Shown here one piece after another: positions 19,931 through 54,227 of a stretch of 64,000 bases of DNA (positions within the stretch are counted from its first letter, which is position 1; each line of letters starts with the position of its first letter). Position numbers and translations under genes: made by a program. This DNA comes from Serpentinicella alkaliphila (lineage in GTDB: Bacteria; Bacillota; Clostridia; Peptostreptococcales; Natronincolaceae), in assembly GCF_018141405.1 (NCBI RefSeq), contig NZ_CP058648.1:387001-451000 (forward strand), read 5' to 3'. The notes beneath the pieces were generated by a model. That model was not told the DNA's origin and searched no databases. It saw only the letters and a program-made list of their open reading frames with translations.

Positions 19931-20140
19931 AACTCTCATCCCTGAAAAAACAGGGACGAGAGTTATATTACCCGCGGTACCACCCTGAGTAGCTAAAATA
20001 GCTCACTCTATGTAATCGTAACGTGATTACCCTCGTAATGACTTATATCATCATATGCTCAAGAGTGGGTTCAAAAAGTTAAGTTTATAGGACTTTCACC
20101 AATATCCTACTCTCTGTAAAACATCACTTTTTTAATATTC
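19931..20140 (-). promoter_or_regulatory. T-box riboswitch for proline, upstream of proAB
   Basis: On the minus strand the invariant T-box sequence AGGGTGGTACCGCGGG (19971-19986) is followed by a strong terminator hairpin (ACTCTC-TCCCTG pairing, 19931-19964) and a T run. The upstream stem I region has AGAGAG pairing with CTCTT, and the specifier segment GAACCCACTC (20063-20072 on the plus strand) reads CCC or CCA, both proline codons. Uncharged tRNA-Pro should block termination and turn on proA and proB. Confidence 0.95.
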
Positions 20141-20217
20141 TCCGTCAAAGCATTTATCAATTATCAAATTATATTTGTTATATTATATATAAAATCAGTT
20201 TTTATGTCAATTTAATT

Positions 20218-46781: not shown

Positions 46782-46841
46782 GAAAAGCAATTGCATTTTA
46801 TTACCAGTATTTTAATTTATATTGCTGGACAATATAATAGT

Positions 46842-47259
46842 GTCGGGTAAGTAAGGGTTAAGCCAAGATTCATATTCGCTTCGGAAGAGGTGTCTATGGG
46901 TCGGCCAAAGATTATATATTGGTCAACATAAGGGCTAGTATATAGTCGGAGGGAAGATTCTATAGGGTTAGGAAAGGTTTTATTATAGTCGGCTAACTTA
47001 TACCGTTTGTTTTATCGATTATAATGGGATCCCAACTTATTTTATAGGGTCGAGCTAAAATTCTATTGGGTGTCGCAGGCTTTATTTATTGGGCTTATGG
47101 TTATATATAGCCGTAAGGTTATATATAGCTATTAAGATATCCTCTAGGGTTGAGTGAACCATTCTTATGGGTGTTGAATCTGCTTATTTATGGTCGAAAG
47201 ATCATACTTAGGTGGTTAAATATCTCTAAGGGTGCTAACAAGATTCTTACTTGCTCGGC
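46842..47259 (+). ncRNA. Large structured RNA candidate, copy 1
   Basis: The two ends pair over 14 bp: GTCGGGTAAGTAAG (46842-46855) with CTTACTTGCTCGGC (47246-47259), with three G-U pairs that exist only on the + strand. Internal helices include GGCCAA/TTGGTC (46903, 46919), GGCTA/TAGTC (46933, 46943), GGTTAG/CTAACT (46966, 46993), an 11-bp stem capped by a GTAA tetraloop (47102-47127), GGTC-GAAA-GATC (47192-47203) and CTTAG/CTAAG (47207, 47226). TATAAT (46833-46838) ends 4 nt before the closing helix, with a weak -35; TTAACTATTTTTTG follows the helix like a terminator tail. The family is unknown to me; it does not look like tmRNA, RNase P, 6S or a group II intron. Confidence 0.75.
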
Positions 47260-47364
47260 TTAACTATTTTTTGATAACATTTTGGTTATATATTATTCTA
47301 TTTAAATAAAAAATTACATTATATTACCAGTGTTTTATCTTATCTAATTGGACAATATAATAGT

Positions 47365-47784
47365 GTCGGGTAAGTAAGGGTTAAGCCAAGATTCATATTT
47401 CGCTTTGAAAGAGGTGTCTATGGGTCGGCCAAAGATTATATATTGGTCACGGCGGCTAGTATATAGTCGGAGGGAAGATTCTATAGGGTTAGGAAAGGTT
47501 TTATTATAGTCGGCTAGCTGTTTCAATGATTTTTTCGATTATAATGGGATCCCAACTTATTTTATAGGGTCGAGCTAAGATTCTATTGGGTGTCGCAGGC
47601 TTATTTATTGAGCTAATGGTTATATATGGCCGTAAGGGTATGGTTCTATATAGCTGTTAAGATATCCTCTAGGGTCGAGTGAACCATTCTTACGGGTGTT
47701 GATTCTGCTTATTTATGGTCGGAAGATCATACTTAGGTGGTAAAATATCTTTAAGGGTGCTAACAAGATTCTTACTTGCTCGGC
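47365..47784 (+). ncRNA. Large structured RNA candidate, copy 2
   Basis: Second copy with the same closing helix (47365-47378 with 47771-47784) and TATAAT at 47356-47361. Compared with copy 1 the tetraloop changes from GAAA to GGAA (47721-47724), both GNRA; the helix CTTAG/CTAAG becomes CTTAG/TTAAG (G-C to G-U, 47732-47755); and GGTTAG/CTAACT becomes GGTTAG/CTAGCT (U-A to U-G). These changes keep pairing only if the + strand is the RNA. The GTAA-capped stem is weaker here because of an insertion on its 3' side. The T-rich tail is less marked. It ends 7 nt before the stop codon of convergent modC. Confidence 0.72.
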
Positions 47785-47791
47785 TTATTAT

Positions 47792-48412
47792 TTAATAATA
47801 TGCTATTTTATTTGCCAATACTTCTACATCTCTTTTATCATGGGTTACTAATACTACCGGAATATTCCAATAAGAAAAAAATCTTTTAATCTCTTTTCTT
47901 AAATTTTCTTTAACATTAATATCTAAAGCAGAAAAAGGTTCATCTAATAGTAGTACTTTTGGATTTGTAGCCAAAGCTCTCATTATTGCTACTCTTTGTT
48001 TTTGTCCACCAGATAACTCCATAGGATATTTGTCCTTTTTATTATCCAATCCTGTAATCCTTAATAAATCTATAGCTTTTCTTATCTTTAAATCTCTATC
48101 TTTATCTTTCATTCCAAATATAATATTATCTATGACTTTCATATGTGGGAAAAGACCATAATTTTGTGGTACATAACCTATATGTCTATCCTTAGGTGGT
48201 ATACAAATATTTTTTTCTTTGTCATAAATTATTTTTTTATCTATTTCAATAAAACCATAATCGGGATTAATAAGTCCTGCAACGGATTGTATTGTAATAC
48301 TCTTTCCTGACCCAGAAGGTCCATAAAGACTTATTACTTCTCCATTTCCTACTTCCCATTCTTTATCAATTTTAAAATCATCGAATTTCTTTGTTATTTT
48401 TACTTTAAGCAT
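47792..48412 (-). CDS. modC: Molybdate ABC transporter ATPase, short form
   Basis: About 206 residues. Walker A SLYGPSGSGKSITIQSVAGL, Q-loop GYVPQNYGLFPHMKV, signature MELSGGQKQRVAIMRAL, Walker B PKVLLLDEPFSALD, H-switch VVLVTHDKRDVEVLA. The protein stops at NKIAYY, where related ATPases continue with a strand-turn (IAV...G) and a molybdate-binding TOBE domain, so it lacks the end of the ABC domain as well as TOBE. The stop lies beside copy 2 of the RNA element. Start at ATG 48412 by ribosome-site spacing, or 48418 whose ATGA overlaps the modB stop. Confidence 0.88.
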   Translation of the reverse strand: MLKVKITKKFDDFKIDKEWEVGNGEVISLYGPSGSGKSITIQSVAGLINPDYGFIEIDKKIIYDKEKNICIPPKDRHIGYVPQNYGLFPHMKVIDNIIFGMKDKDRDLKIRKAIDLLRITGLDNKKDKYPMELSGGQKQRVAIMRALATNPKVLLLDEPFSALDINVKENLRKEIKRFFSYWNIPVVLVTHDKRDVEVLANKIAYY

Positions 48413-48414
48413 CC

Positions 48415-49074
48415 TCATCCCTTCCTTTCCATATTAATCTTATTTATAAAAAGTAATGCAATTATTGTTATACTACTTATTAATAAAACTAGAAAGTTTG
48501 CCTGTTCATACTTTCCCCCCTGAACCGCATCATATATTGCAATTGATAATGTCTGAGTTTTACCTGGAATATTTCCTGCGACCATTAATGTTGCTCCAAA
48601 CTCTCCCATCGATCTAGCAAATGCAAGTACTATTCCCCCAACTATTCCTTTCCATGCTAAAGGTAATGTAATTCTGAAAAATATGCTCAATTCTGACTTT
48701 CCTAGAGTCCTTGCCACATCTTCTAAAGTAGTATCTACGCTCTCTATGCTAGATTGGACAGACCGTATCATTAAAGGTAGAGATACAATAATTGAAGCAA
48801 TTACCGCGGCCTTCCACGTAAATATTAAATTAATATTCAACCTTTCAATAAGAATTTTTCCAATAAAACTCTGTCTACCAATAGTAATTAATAAGTAGTA
48901 ACCCAGAACTGTTGGTGGCAAAACCATTGGTAATGTTACCAAGGCAGAAAAGACACTTTTACCATAAAATTTGCACTTGGCCAATACCCAACCAATTAAA
49001 ATCCCTATAATAGCCGTAAATAAAGTTGAATAAGATGCTACTTTTATTGATAAATACATTGGCGACCAATTCAT
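48415..49074 (-). CDS. modB: Molybdate ABC transporter permease
   Basis: 219 residues, five to six membrane segments. Family marks: KVASYSTLFTAIIGILIGWV, LVTLPMVLPPTVLGYYLLI, the EAA loop DVARTLGKSELSIFFRITLP and ARSMGEFGATLMVAGNIPGK. Works with ModA and ModC to import molybdate, needed for FeMo-cofactor. AGGGGGAGG precedes the ATG; 14 bp after modA. Confidence 0.95.
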   Translation of the reverse strand: MNWSPMYLSIKVASYSTLFTAIIGILIGWVLAKCKFYGKSVFSALVTLPMVLPPTVLGYYLLITIGRQSFIGKILIERLNINLIFTWKAAVIASIIVSLPLMIRSVQSSIESVDTTLEDVARTLGKSELSIFFRITLPLAWKGIVGGIVLAFARSMGEFGATLMVAGNIPGKTQTLSIAIYDAVQGGKYEQANFLVLLISSITIIALLFINKINMERKG

Positions 49075-49088
49075 CTGCCTCCCCCTTC

Positions 49089-49868
49089 CTATGGTATGTC
49101 ATACCCGTATTCTTTTAAAACTACTTCTGCTTTAGGACTTTTAACAAAGTCAGTAAACGCTTTTCCTAACTGTTGGTTATTAGAATGACTTACAATACCT
49201 ATAATTTGATTTAGAGGATTATGAAGCTGTTTATCAATTAATAGATAATTCATATCTTCTGTAATTAAAGACAAGGCAGTAATACCTACTTGGGCATTTC
49301 CAGTTTCAACAAATTGCAACGCTTGGGAAACATTTTCACTATATACAACTTTATGTTCTATTAAATCCCATAAACCAAAACTTATAAGGGCCTCCTTTGC
49401 AGCTAATCCATAAGGGGCGTGATTAGGGTTTGCAATTGCTATACTAGTAATTTCATCTAACTTCAAATCCTCAAGAGATTCAACTTTTACATTTAACTTT
49501 TCATTTGTAACTAATACTATTCTACCTATAGCATACAAATCTTTAGTTTCCTCTAATATATCTCCTCTATCTATTAGCTCATCTATAAAATTTTCACTAG
49601 CAGGAGCAAAAACATCAATTGGTGCCCCATTAATAATTTGTTGTGTCAAGTTTCCTGTGGAACCAAACTGAAAAATAACTTTACAACCAAATTCCTGTTC
49701 AAATAATTCTCCTATCTTCTCAAAGGCAAATTTAAAATTAGATGCAGCAGCAACATGTAGTTCTAAATCCTCTTTATGAATATTCTCTACTTTTTTATTA
49801 CTACATCCGGTTAAAACTATGCCTAATACTAACATCCCTATTATTATCTTTAATATTTTTTTATGCAT
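49089..49868 (-). CDS. modA: Molybdate-binding lipoprotein
   Basis: About 259 residues. Signal peptide with lipobox (MLVLGIVLTGCSNKK), then the ModA fold: LHVAAASNFKFAFEKIGELF, FQFGSTGNLTQQIINGAPID (oxyanion contacts), VFAPASENFIDELID and a C-terminal QLGKAFTDFVKSPKAEVVLK. It captures molybdate (possibly tungstate) outside the cell. The ATG at 49868 follows AAAGGAATACTC; the longer frame to 49907 runs into an inverted repeat and is not used. Lies downstream of the nif genes on the same strand. Confidence 0.94.
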   Translation of the reverse strand: MHKKILKIIIGMLVLGIVLTGCSNKKVENIHKEDLELHVAAASNFKFAFEKIGELFEQEFGCKVIFQFGSTGNLTQQIINGAPIDVFAPASENFIDELIDRGDILEETKDLYAIGRIVLVTNEKLNVKVESLEDLKLDEITSIAIANPNHAPYGLAAKEALISFGLWDLIEHKVVYSENVSQALQFVETGNAQVGITALSLITEDMNYLLIDKQLHNPLNQIIGIVSHSNNQQLGKAFTDFVKSPKAEVVLKEYGYDIP

Positions 49869-49888
49869 GAGTATTCCTTTCCCTATGA

Positions 49889-49929
49889 AATAAGATGTCT
49901 TACACATTCTATTTATAAGACATCTTATT
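49889..49929. repeat. 14-bp perfect inverted repeat between the ferredoxin gene and modA
   Basis: AATAAGATGTCTTA (49889-49902) and TAAGACATCTTATT (49916-49929) are exact reverse complements around a 13-nt spacer. On the + strand it is followed by ATAATTTTTTTT and so resembles a terminator, but no + gene precedes it. On the minus strand it lies in the modA leader, where it could be a nif/mod boundary hairpin or a regulator site. Confidence 0.6.
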
Positions 49930-49955
49930 ATAATTTTTTTTACAAGTATTAACTA

Positions 49956-50267
49956 TCATATTAATAATCTTTCAACAACTTTACCTTTCTCTATATGTGA
50001 CTCTACTATTTCTTCTACGTCATCAGGAGTAACTTTTCCGTACCATATACCCTCTGGATATATAATAACTACCGGACCCTTCCCACAAATACCTAGACAA
50101 CCCATTGTAGTTATCATTACATCATCTTCAATTTCTCGCTCCTGAAATTCTGAGATAAATTCATTCACTATTCTTACAGTTCCCTTTGTCATACACATTC
50201 CTTTTTGTTCTCCTGTAAGCCTTGAACTAGCACAGACAAAAATATGAAACTTTGGCTTCAGTATCAT
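49956..50267 (-). CDS. [2Fe-2S] ferredoxin of the clostridial thioredoxin-like type
   Basis: 103 residues. It closely resembles the C. pasteurianum 2Fe-2S ferredoxin as I remember it: FHIFVCASSRLTGEQKGMCM at the start, TTMGCLGICGKGPVVIIYPE, and an end TPDDVEEIVESHIEKGKVVE. Cluster ligands are C12, C25 and the CLGIC pair. The Cp protein interacts with the MoFe protein and is linked to nitrogen fixation; a nitrogenase-specific electron or assembly role is likely here. GGAGGGG precedes the ATG; 15 bp after nifB. Confidence 0.92.
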   Translation of the reverse strand: MILKPKFHIFVCASSRLTGEQKGMCMTKGTVRIVNEFISEFQEREIEDDVMITTMGCLGICGKGPVVIIYPEGIWYGKVTPDDVEEIVESHIEKGKVVERLLI

Positions 50268-50282
50268 AATAGTCCCCTCCTT

Positions 50283-51491
50283 TTAAATAGCTTCCCTAAT
50301 CCCATCCATAGCTTTTTTAATACCGCTTTCAATTAAATCATAGGTCTCAATCACTTTAATACTTTTTTCCTTAAGCTTCTGTTTGGGGCTATTCCCTATT
50401 CTTAAACAAAATACAGTATCGCAATCTTCTATTGTTTTTAAAATTAAATCTATTTTACTTTCACTATGACACTCCTCAGGTCCCCCACAATATTGAGGTA
50501 CTGACCGTTTGCTTAAAAACTCCACTTCTCCATTCTGCTTATATTTATATATAGTAAAATTATCGACTTGCCCAAAATGCTGATCAATTAGTCTTCCTGT
50601 TTTAGTAGCTACAGCAACCACATATTCTTTATTATCAATCTTTTCTTTCTTTTGGCCAGAACAACCAACATTTCTAAAATCAATAGAACAGTCTTGCCCA
50701 AGTATTCCAATTGCATCTGCTCTACACTGCTTACAGTGATACATCTGTTTAATTGAAGAGCTACACTTCATTCTAGTTAGGTTTAGCTCCCTATTACTGG
50801 TTAAGGGCATATTTTCAAACTTACTTCCCTCTGCAGGTATAAGTGGCATTATATTTGTCATAAAGGCCCCTAAACTCTCAACCTTTTTTACAACATCCTC
50901 TATATGACTATCGTTAACCCCTTTAATCATAACGATATTAACCTTGCAGACCATGTCCCTTTCCTTCATAGCTTTTAAACCTTTTAGTTGTTTCTCGATT
51001 AGTAAACTTGCCCCTTCAATACCTTTTAAAACCTTCCCTTCATAAATCACGCTATCATATATTTGGGATCCGATTACAGGATCGATAGCATTTATTGTTA
51101 TAGTAATATGGGAAACCCCTAAAGCCTTTAGTTCATCTGCATATTCTTCTACTAGCAACCCATTTGTTGATAGACAAATAATAATATCTGGACTTTCATT
51201 TTTAATGAGTTCAATAGCCTCTTTAGTCTCTTTAAAATTTGCTAAAGCATCTCCCGGTCCAGCTATTCCTACCACTGTTAAATTAGAAAGTTTACTTTTT
51301 ACCTCTTTAAATTTAACTAAGGATTGTTCGGGAGATAAAACTTCACTAGTTACACCAGGTCTACTCTCATTTAAACAATCGTATTTTCTATTACAATAGT
51401 TACACTTTATATTACATTGTGGTGCCACCGGAATATGCATTCTAGCATTATTAGCTGCATTACTATTAAAACACGGATGTCTTTCATCCAT
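50283..51491 (-). CDS. nifB: FeMo-cofactor biosynthesis radical SAM protein NifB
   Basis: 402 residues. Radical SAM motif IPVAPQCNIKCNYCNRKYDC (CxxxCxxC), the NifB start HPCFNSNAANNARMH, further cysteines QMYHCKQCRADAIGILGQDC, and a C-terminal NifX-like domain (about 290-400: VAVATKTGRLIDQHFGQVDN). It builds the 8Fe NifB-co from two 4Fe clusters with an inserted carbide. In C. pasteurianum nifN and nifB are fused; here they are separate genes 29 bp apart. Confidence 0.96.
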   Translation of the reverse strand: MDERHPCFNSNAANNARMHIPVAPQCNIKCNYCNRKYDCLNESRPGVTSEVLSPEQSLVKFKEVKSKLSNLTVVGIAGPGDALANFKETKEAIELIKNESPDIIICLSTNGLLVEEYADELKALGVSHITITINAIDPVIGSQIYDSVIYEGKVLKGIEGASLLIEKQLKGLKAMKERDMVCKVNIVMIKGVNDSHIEDVVKKVESLGAFMTNIMPLIPAEGSKFENMPLTSNRELNLTRMKCSSSIKQMYHCKQCRADAIGILGQDCSIDFRNVGCSGQKKEKIDNKEYVVAVATKTGRLIDQHFGQVDNFTIYKYKQNGEVEFLSKRSVPQYCGGPEECHSESKIDLILKTIEDCDTVFCLRIGNSPKQKLKEKSIKVIETYDLIESGIKKAMDGIREAI

Positions 51492-51520
51492 AAAGACTCC
51501 CCCTTTCTTTAATCCTAGCC

Positions 51521-52879
51521 TTATCCTAAATAATATTTATCAAATAAATCTTCTCTGTAGGAGCTAAACTTTTGCTCAATTAATGTATTCGTTATATCAT
51601 CTAAAAAACTAATAGAGCCTTCATATCCTATAAAAACCCTCCGTTGTGCCCCTACTCTATCATGGATTGGAAAGCCTATACGCACTAATGGTATTCCTTC
51701 CTTCTCCACCATAAATTTTCCGTCTCCGTTTCCTATAAGAATATTCACATCAAGCTTTTTAACATAGCTATATATAGTTTCAAAATCTGTATCGTTTAAA
51801 ATAATCGGTTTATCCTTTGTGTCAATATTATTTTCTATTTTCAATTTAAAGTTTGAAATTTTAGCTCCAGTAGCTATTAATACAGGTTTAATTCCGTTCT
51901 CACTACATAATTTACTAACTGCATATACCAGTTCTGGATCTCCAAAAATTACAGCCTTGCCTTCACCGTTGTATTTGTGGGAATCTATCATGCCATCAAG
52001 CATTCTTGCCCTTTCCTTTAATAGCTTTTCTGGAACCTTTCTGCCACTTATATTACTAATTAATTCTATAAAAGTATCAGTATTTTCTAATCCAATAGGT
52101 AATGGACATCTATATAGAGGCACTTGATATTTATCTTCTAAATATTTACCTGGTGATGATTTGTCTGAAACGAGCATTCCCATTTCAATGGTTGCCACTG
52201 CCCCTGACATGTTTTTTATATCTTCAATTTTAGTTCCATCAGAAGAAAGCTTATTATATTTACTTGTAAATCCAGAATCCAATGTATCACTTATATCTGG
52301 AAGTAAAGTGTACCCTATATCAAATAGCTCTAAAATCTCTTTTATCCTTCGGATATCGCCGGGTGTTAAATTCCCAGCCACAATATTTACTTTTTCCGTA
52401 GTTGTTGACTTTACAGTTATACTTTCAACAATTCTACGAAGAGTTAAATAGTACCCTTCATGCTCAGAAGGTCCATATCCAGGGGTGGGTACTGTAATAA
52501 TAGATATATCCTTAATATTTTCCTGTTCTTTAAAATCAGTAACAATCGAATTAATATCCTCACCTATAGTCTCAGCCAAGCAAGTAGTTGCTACGCCAAT
52601 TACCTTGGGGTTATATAGTTTAATGACATTTTTAAGACCTTGCTTAAGATTAGTTGCGCCCCCATAAACTATTTCCTTTTCATTTAAGGATGATGATGCA
52701 ATATCGATTGGTTCATTGTAGTGAGTTGCCATATGTCTTCTAATATATGTGCTACACCCTTGAGAGCCATGAAGAATAATTACTGTATTTTCAATACCTT
52801 TAAAGGCTGTAGCAGCCCCCATAGGCATACACATTTTACATGGATTAACAGTTAAATTTACAAAATTTCTAGTCTTCAT
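51521..52879 (-). CDS. nifN: FeMo-cofactor scaffold subunit NifN
   Basis: About 452 residues, nitrogenase component 1 family. VNPCKMCMPMGAATAFKGIE, LHGSQGCSTYIRRHMATHYN and VATTCLAETIGED supply three conserved cysteines for the P-cluster-like [4Fe-4S] site. With NifE it forms the scaffold on which NifB-co matures. The start overlaps the nifE stop; by spacing from GAGGGA the second ATG (52879) is favoured over 52885. Confidence 0.93.
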   Translation of the reverse strand: MKTRNFVNLTVNPCKMCMPMGAATAFKGIENTVIILHGSQGCSTYIRRHMATHYNEPIDIASSSLNEKEIVYGGATNLKQGLKNVIKLYNPKVIGVATTCLAETIGEDINSIVTDFKEQENIKDISIITVPTPGYGPSEHEGYYLTLRRIVESITVKSTTTEKVNIVAGNLTPGDIRRIKEILELFDIGYTLLPDISDTLDSGFTSKYNKLSSDGTKIEDIKNMSGAVATIEMGMLVSDKSSPGKYLEDKYQVPLYRCPLPIGLENTDTFIELISNISGRKVPEKLLKERARMLDGMIDSHKYNGEGKAVIFGDPELVYAVSKLCSENGIKPVLIATGAKISNFKLKIENNIDTKDKPIILNDTDFETIYSYVKKLDVNILIGNGDGKFMVEKEGIPLVRIGFPIHDRVGAQRRVFIGYEGSISFLDDITNTLIEQKFSSYREDLFDKYYLG

Positions 52880-54227
52880 GTACATCCCTCAATTCTTTTC
52901 TAATTGATTTCCATACGGGGCTATTAACGGATGTATGAACCTCTTGAGCAAAATTTATAGATCCTTCAAAACAATTTAATGGATGCTTTCTCTCATGATT
53001 ATGATCACAAAAAGCAATTCCAAGCTTATATGCTAGAGGTCTTTCCTTTACTCCCCCTACCAATATATCTGCGCCCTTTTCTTTCATAAACTTCTCTAAT
53101 TCACTAGGGTTACTATCATCTAAAATAACAGTCCCTTCATCCACTAGAGATTTAATTGTTTCATACTCATTTCGCTTTCCAGTTTGGGTTCCTACCATAA
53201 CAGTTTTCATACCAAGCTCATTAAATTGCTTTATTAAAGAAATTGCTTTAAACCCTCCACCCACATATATAGCAGCCTTCTTATCCTTTAGTAACTCCTT
53301 ATATGTCATTAAGGATTTTTCTGTCTCTAAAGCCTCTTTTTTAATAAGATCCAAAAATTCCTCATTATATTTATCCCCTAAGGCCTCGATTACTTTTTCA
53401 AAGGATGTTACCGTATCCTCAATACCATAAAAGCTTACATCTATAAAAGGAATTCCATATTCCTTCTCCATTTGCTTAGCAAGATACGTCATTGATCCAG
53501 CACATTGAACTATATTTAGTTCAGATTTAGCAGCGTTTTTGATTTCCTCAAAGGTTGAATCCCCTGTTATTTTCGCATTTACCTCGATACCTAATTGTTT
53601 TAAATAACTTGTAACAATCCACATTTCCCCTGCTAAATTAAAATCACCTAAAAAGTTAATACCTTTCTTCTTTTCTACCTTAGGACCCAGTAGTAAGGCA
53701 TGACAGGCCGCCTTATATCCATCTTTCTTATTCCCAGCAAAGCCTGAGGACTGAACAGGTACAACCTTTATATTATGCTTTCTTTCTGCCTCTTTGCACA
53801 CAGCTTCCAAATCATCCCCTATTACCCCTACAACACAGGTAGCATATACAAATATTAGCTTTGGACTATGCTTAGCAGCTATTTCATCTATAGCGGCAGC
53901 CAGCTTTTTCTCTCCACCAAAAATAATATCTTCTTCCCTCAGGTCAGTTGAAAAACTATTTCTATAAACCTCTTCTCTACTACTTAAACTTCCTCTTATA
54001 TCCCAAGTATAGACTGCACATCCAATTGGACCATGTACAATGTGGTAAGCATCGGTTATCGGGTTTAAAACTACCCTAGCACCACAGTATACACAGGCTC
54101 TTTGACTAATTGATCCAGCAATGCTATTTTTTTCGCAGTCTATTATTTTGTTTTTATCAGAGCTATTTTTTTCTAATATAAATTCTTTTCTTTCATCTAA
54201 CGTTTCTAGACAACATCCTCTATTCAT
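52869..54227 (-). CDS. nifE: FeMo-cofactor scaffold subunit NifE
   Basis: 452 residues, component 1 family, NifD-like. Cysteines in SQRACVYCGARVVLNPITD, HGPIGCAVYTWDIRGS and FVYATCVVGVIGDDLEAVCK; cofactor-region IVQCAGSMTYLAKQMEKEYG and C-terminal LNCFEGSINFAQEV. Forms the NifE2N2 scaffold. It overlaps nifN by 11-17 bp; 78 bp after nifK. Confidence 0.94.
   Translation of the reverse strand: MNRGCCLETLDERKEFILEKNSSDKNKIIDCEKNSIAGSISQRACVYCGARVVLNPITDAYHIVHGPIGCAVYTWDIRGSLSSREEVYRNSFSTDLREEDIIFGGEKKLAAAIDEIAAKHSPKLIFVYATCVVGVIGDDLEAVCKEAERKHNIKVVPVQSSGFAGNKKDGYKAACHALLLGPKVEKKKGINFLGDFNLAGEMWIVTSYLKQLGIEVNAKITGDSTFEEIKNAAKSELNIVQCAGSMTYLAKQMEKEYGIPFIDVSFYGIEDTVTSFEKVIEALGDKYNEEFLDLIKKEALETEKSLMTYKELLKDKKAAIYVGGGFKAISLIKQFNELGMKTVMVGTQTGKRNEYETIKSLVDEGTVILDDSNPSELEKFMKEKGADILVGGVKERPLAYKLGIAFCDHNHERKHPLNCFEGSINFAQEVHTSVNSPVWKSIRKELRDVHED

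Follow-up and report, generated by a model that had tools for sequence, protein, structure and literature searches.

By style, the described RNAs nearest to the one reported here are OLE, ROOL, GOLLD, and raiA, earlier families of large structured RNA that turned out to be unusual molecules; by likely setting, the nearest are Bvs196 and CsfG. OLE, ROOL, and GOLLD share with it a large, ornate, structured, and noncoding nature and occur in part in Gram-positive bacteria. The raiA motif RNA (ModT) is likewise a structured RNA of Clostridia, with a length of 205 nt (PMC12286853) compared with 355 to 505 nt in the present family, and the title of a paper cited in the same source reports that disruption of raiA causes sporulation defects. 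Bvs196 (S357), a 294-nt small RNA (sRNA) described in Bacillus, has in common with our RNA a structured character, independent transcription, and a forespore setting under sigma-F/sigma-G (PMC9147052). CsfG, too, is described as a forespore-restricted sRNA controlled by sigma-F/sigma-G, and its conservation is said to extend across endospore formers (PMC9147052, PMC3574147); represented by a 136-nt segment in an Hfq study, it has conserved, CU-rich sequence in its terminal loops and between its helices and lies at ylbG-ylbH (PMC3574147).

The window, by which we mean the whole 64,000-nt stretch of Serpentinicella alkaliphila DNA that was analyzed, carries two tandem copies of an RNA that, by the comparisons made, belongs to none of these. 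In contrast to OLE, ROOL, and GOLLD, it is built as a six-way junction with nine near-equal helices, is preceded by a forespore-type promoter, and has no Rfam match. It differs from CsfG (as described in PMC3574147) in having variable or GNRA loops and purine-rich linkers, and also in its locus, between a DsrE-like gene and an ABC transporter gene, in a family without a recurring neighbor; from Bvs196, it would be set apart by its length and described host and, indirectly, by the lack of matches to a broad model (R3) in genomes that are probably Bacilli (see below). Against Rfam 15, nothing at the RNA locus exceeds the gathering score, including the models for HEARO, raiA, OLE, ROOL, and GOLLD; searching the RNA region with E values up to 10 returns three chance-level matches (E, 5.3 to 8.2), and searching six homologous loci returns tRNAs only. 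Across the whole window, the sole match above threshold is a T-box leader located elsewhere (19949-20157, minus strand). We found no published description of the family in the open literature, a coverage that includes only a minority of subscription papers and bioRxiv preprints. We regard the RNA as new at the level of the family; its broad class, that of large structured RNAs of unknown function, is already known.

A conserved six-way junction

The original prediction had placed two tandem elements of about 420 nt on the plus strand of the window, and both lie at those positions (Table 1), sharing 91% identity across 418 to 420 nt. Copy 1 folds with an energy of -158 kcal/mol (z, -10.8) and copy 2 with one of -153.5 kcal/mol (z, -7.4); in neither case was any of 100 dinucleotide shuffles equally low. 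The fold is a six-way junction that is closed by helix P1 and from which arms P2 through P6 extend; P4, P5, and P6 each consist of two stacked helices. Several details that had been anticipated can be located on this architecture: the closing helix, first given as 14 bp, in fact reaches 18 bp in each copy and contains the G-U pairs that fix the plus strand; the GAAA-to-GGAA loop change between copies is present; and the GTAA-capped stem corresponds to P5b (47098-47131).

Table 1. Positions in the window of the two RNA copies, their structural parts, their promoters, and the adjoining genes
Feature	Position	Strand	Support or remark
RNA copy 1, six-way junction P1-P6	46842-47259	+	Fold energy and covariation in homologues
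RNA copy 2, architecture as copy 1; GGAA loop in P6 (47721-47724)	47365-47784	+	
P1, 5' strand	46842-46859	+	Partner 47242-47259; double changes in 9/17 modeled pairs, 97.9% of cells paired
P1, 3' strand, followed by T-rich tract	47242-47259	+	
P1 of copy 2	47365-47382 with 47767-47784	+	18 bp
P2 hairpin, variable loop	46867-46902	+	Double changes in 9/16 pairs
P3 hairpin, variable loop	46910-46947	+	Double changes in 10/15 pairs
P3 extension, CC/GG	46905-46906 / 46951-46952	+	Pair covaries in 5/93
P4 arm (P4a and P4b), near-invariant GAAA/CCAA internal loop	46956-47051	+	Double changes in 23/31 pairs
P5 arm (P5a and P5b), GTAA (GNRA) tetraloop at 47113-47116	47059-47151	+	
P6 arm (P6a and P6b), GAAA tetraloop at 47196-47199	47160-47234	+	Double changes in 21/31 pairs
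Promoter of copy 1: GTATT (46807-46811), 18-nt spacer, CAATATA (46830-46836)	46807-46836	+	P1 starts 6 nt further
Promoter of copy 2: GTGTT (47330-47334), 18-nt spacer, CAATATA (47353-47359)	47330-47359	+	-35 one base off the strict pattern
Molybdate-type ABC transporter genes, then nifB-like radical SAM/Nitro_FeMo-Co gene, then nitrogenase component 1-type gene	47792-52885	-	

Both the structure and the existence of a conserved, folded RNA family are well shown by comparison of homologues. RNAalifold predicts 148 pairs from 15 sequences, 62 of them with double compensatory changes, and 142 pairs from 42 full-length sequences, 91 of them with double changes. When pairing over those 142 pairs is counted independently of the prediction, 98.4% of cells pair in the 42 sequences, compared with 36.6 to 42.4% in a control in which partners were slid by 1 to 3 columns; double-change cells number 658, against 164 in shuffles. 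For P3-P4, double changes occur in 43 of 48 pairs among 93 sequences, in an alignment that was fitted to the model and, hence, leans towards it. The first 28 column pairs in a structure-blind covariation ranking all belong to the structure, and the same ranking yields no indication of pseudoknots, unpaired columns being without clear covariation outside the secondary-structure model. The homologues keep the proposed helices intact by compensatory change, and every part of the original prediction, a tandem, plus-strand, large structured noncoding RNA of unrecognized family, is supported.

Nearly all conserved bases lie in pairs or in the short junction linkers, which are conserved and purine-rich (GAGCCMA, GGCCAAA, GGMGGGAA, GAGCKAA, GAACGAAC, and CAAGGUA). 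GNRA loops cap P5 and P6, and the GAAA/CCAA internal loop occupies P4, in nearly all sequences, whereas the hairpin loops of P2, P3, and P4 vary in both length and sequence. The base of P2/P3 is ambiguous: the P2-P3 linker GGCC could pair with either the GCC that precedes P2 or the GG that follows P3, and the latter alternative shows some covariation. In three homologues (L093, L094, and L110), the GNRA loop at the tip of P6 is replaced by a longer insertion around UACGGCUGGUUCGU. Mimicry of a Shine-Dalgarno sequence by GGAGGGAA was also considered, a candidate weakened by the natural occurrence of GGCGGGAA.

A repeated wobble module

Nine helices of 13 to 17 bp each (about 15 bp) hold wobble pairs as wobbles while their neighboring pairs covary. 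A U.G pair is followed by a G.U pair exactly 9 bp on in eight of the nine (the spacing in P2 is 8, and the count for P5a includes two pairs omitted by RNAalifold); permutation of pairs within helices produced at most five of nine at this spacing in 20000 trials. Nine base pairs approximate one turn of an A-form helix, which we take as a sign that every helix would offer an identical face to one shared partner. Because the module recurs nine times and most of the hairpin loops are unconstrained, we infer that the helices themselves form the working surface of the RNA; the wobble module could instead serve folding rather than protein binding. The arms also resemble one another: covariance model R2, which represents arms P3-P4, also matches the P5-P6 part of the same RNAs, and R1, an independent model of P6, also matches the P4 part (best E, ~1e-8 to 1e-9). 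These cross-matches suggest that the RNA grew by internal duplication.

The same structural features bear on whether the RNA assembles solely with itself, as a homo-oligomer like ROOL, GOLLD, or OLE in which GNRA loops and A-rich linkers dock into the helices of other copies to build a cage or bundle. The size class, the GNRA loops on nearly all P5 and P6 arms, the strongly conserved purine-rich linkers, and the GAAA/CCAA internal loop would all suit such an assembly, and large ornate RNAs can oligomerize via A-minor contacts and kissing loops (PMC12286853). However, the loops of P2, P3, and P4, which would be the natural kissing loops, are unconserved, no clear covariation occurs outside the secondary structure, and the 205-nt raiA RNA is a monomer (PMC12286853), such that large structured RNAs need not oligomerize. 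We consider a self-assembling RNA of this kind unlikely.

Distribution among spore-forming bacteria

Of 118 relatives, 13 carry the element by blastn, and identity is mostly 67 to 75% over most of its length. R2 matches occur in 35 of the 391 genomes of a class sample (23 of 223 genera) and in 60 of the 398 genomes of a phylum sample (49 of 267 genera), and R1 recovers the same loci. A DNA pattern search matched 28 named contigs, including those of Orenia, Petroclostridium, Tepidibacter, Maledivibacter, Natronincola, Anaerovirgula, and Thermohalobacter, along with a few Bacilli (Ectobacillus and Bacillus sp. EB600). With nhmmer, the RNA is found in nearly all loci, 63 copies aligning over almost the whole profile, one of which is cut by a contig end. 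A broad model, R3, run without a positive control, gave no match in 110 genomes from the order of genome G625 (probably Bacilli). One carrier record (JAJGRE010000001.1; L072/L095) is titled “Calditrichales bacterium MX18-03,” a name that looks wrong, as the genome falls in the window's own class.

Carriage of the RNA is associated with sporulation genes. SpoIVA is present in all 60 carriers of the phylum sample, compared with 275 of 338 noncarriers (Fisher P = 1.3e-5, optimistic owing to relatedness), and a sigma-G-like factor, at a threshold that also admits related factors, is present in 34 of the 35 carriers of the class sample (P = 3e-4, again optimistic owing to relatedness). The sole carrier without a sigma-G-like match is a genome that is 71% complete, and among the sampled genomes, no carrier is clearly devoid of sporulation genes. 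As far as sampled, the family is confined to genomes with sporulation genes, and its homologues are so far limited to spore-forming relatives of Clostridium and Bacillus.

Most carrier genomes contain one copy; those with two or three hold them either in tandem (L062 and L067) or apart (L115, and L052 and L055 of Thermohalobacter). That several genomes hold the RNA in tandem or in more than one copy could be read as the trace of a mobile or selfish element, a highly improbable origin given that the single copy is the usual state, that blastn searches of phage and plasmid collections returned no match to the RNA, and that no protein is associated with it. A match to the DNA pattern on one viral contig (L076, 1600-1634, minus strand), unconfirmed by R2 or R1, is likely due to chance.

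A promoter of probable forespore type

The pattern GNATW-N16..19-YANNNTA precedes 47 of 56 nonredundant copies (shuffle mean, 4.7; maximum, 13) and its strict form, GNATA-N17/18-CATNNTA, precedes 13 of 56 (shuffles, 0.13), comparisons that are somewhat optimistic in that the pattern was picked after viewing the alignment, with letter counts conditioned on it. Nearly always, the spacer is 17 or 18 nt and the element ends 4 to 7 nt before P1; in the window, copy 2 is identical to copy 1 in spacing and in its -10 element. Judged against textbook letters, this element resembles forespore sigma-G/sigma-F promoters. In ten carrier genomes, the regions ahead of SASP genes give only a slight excess in score for a matrix built from promoters of the RNA, both over the regions ahead of other genes (P = 0.013) and over shuffles (P = 0.017); with an excess this small, it is chiefly the consensus that carries the sigma-G assignment. 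A stronger SASP-promoter comparison (P = 5e-7) was set aside, its background being mostly coding DNA. In Clostridioides difficile, the consensus elements of sigma-F and sigma-G resemble those of Bacillus subtilis as well as each other (PMC3789822).

A TATAAT box had been noted before both copies, and it is indeed present, as part of the conserved element; the sigma-A promoter that it implied did not hold up, the family-wide motif being of the forespore sigma type. That the RNA is a vegetative one, transcribed by sigma-A from this box and unconnected with sporulation, would accord with the TATAAT-like strings in many -10 regions of the family. Yet sigma-A -35/-10 pairs occur at chance (38 of 56 copies versus 35 in shuffles, with two mismatches) with no sigma-A -35 enriched, whereas GNATW at 17 to 18 nt is strongly enriched, and every carrier in the phylum sample has SpoIVA; we therefore regard vegetative expression as improbable. 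From its promoter element, the RNA is quite likely to be transcribed in the forespore. The spacer between -35 and -10 is flanked by ACCAG and TGG-type letters that form an imperfect inverted repeat (46804-46828 and 47327-47351), which is found in the window and close relatives and is possibly the site of a regulator.

A forespore-type promoter would equally suit a base-pairing sRNA that acts, like Bvs196, on spore mRNAs. Against this stands the distribution of conserved bases, almost all of which are paired or in short linkers, with the potential seed loops of P2 to P4 being variable, and we assign such a role little probability.

An independent transcription unit

Upstream of the two copies, the DsrE-like gene itself follows a class V aminotransferase gene. 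The gene downstream of copy 2, which converges on the RNA, encodes an ABC transporter and belongs to a molybdate-type operon beside nitrogenase-related genes. This molybdate/nitrogenase-type gene set is not kept around the RNA in other carriers. Clustering of flanking open reading frames (ORFs) at 66 to 67 loci revealed no conserved partner protein, and the two largest ORF clusters are short frames apparently inside the RNA itself. Among neighboring genes, the largest cluster has five members.

As had been predicted, the two copies share no coding frame, their longest open stretches differing in frame and strand. The same applies to the family, in which no reading frame is conserved and the longest open stretches are scattered over all frames of both strands; a protein-coding element was, therefore, rejected. 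Directly after P1, the T fraction is 0.66 to 0.69 over 10 nt, compared with 0.32 to 0.44 further 3' (62 copies), which is consistent with termination at that point. Large size, conservation, and structure are properties that the RNA could share with a cis-regulatory leader or large riboswitch, but only 27 of 53 downstream genes share the strand of the RNA, none recurs, and the next gene in the window converges on the RNA, making a leader extremely improbable. With no shared frame, no conserved neighbor, and a mixed downstream strand, the RNA is a stand-alone unit on the plus strand, neither leader nor coding.

Proposed role and significance

On balance, we favor an architectural RNA that would be expressed in the forespore and act in trans, probably as a multivalent scaffold or sponge. 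Under this proposal, each copy would be a separate transcription unit, at which RNA polymerase carrying sigma-G, or perhaps also sigma-F, as its forespore sigma factor would start at P1 or a few nucleotides before it and finish in the U-rich tract after P1, and the transcript would fold into the six-way junction of P1 and arms P2 to P6. We advance tentatively, as a hypothesis, that the nine module-bearing helices would then bind one helix-binding protein in the forespore, for which the RNA would act as the multivalent scaffold or sponge. Alternatively, packing of helix on helix could yield a compact RNA particle that is kept in the spore. A structural spore RNA in this sense, namely, an abundant, forespore-made particle with nine near-identical helix modules and a role in binding, storing, or packaging some component of the spore, is possible, if rather doubtful.

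It is rare for a new family of large structured RNA to come with dozens of homologues that preserve its helices. This one spans many families of spore-formers and is absent from the copy of Rfam that was searched. Its architecture, in which nine near-equal helices keep their wobbles in a fixed register, is unusual and offers a directly testable design rule. The promoter suggests synthesis of the RNA within the developing spore, a setting in which, to our knowledge, few RNAs of known function exist. It may, thus, be an unrecognized RNA component of bacterial spores; if so, a spore structural RNA would represent a developmental RNA machine of a kind undescribed so far.
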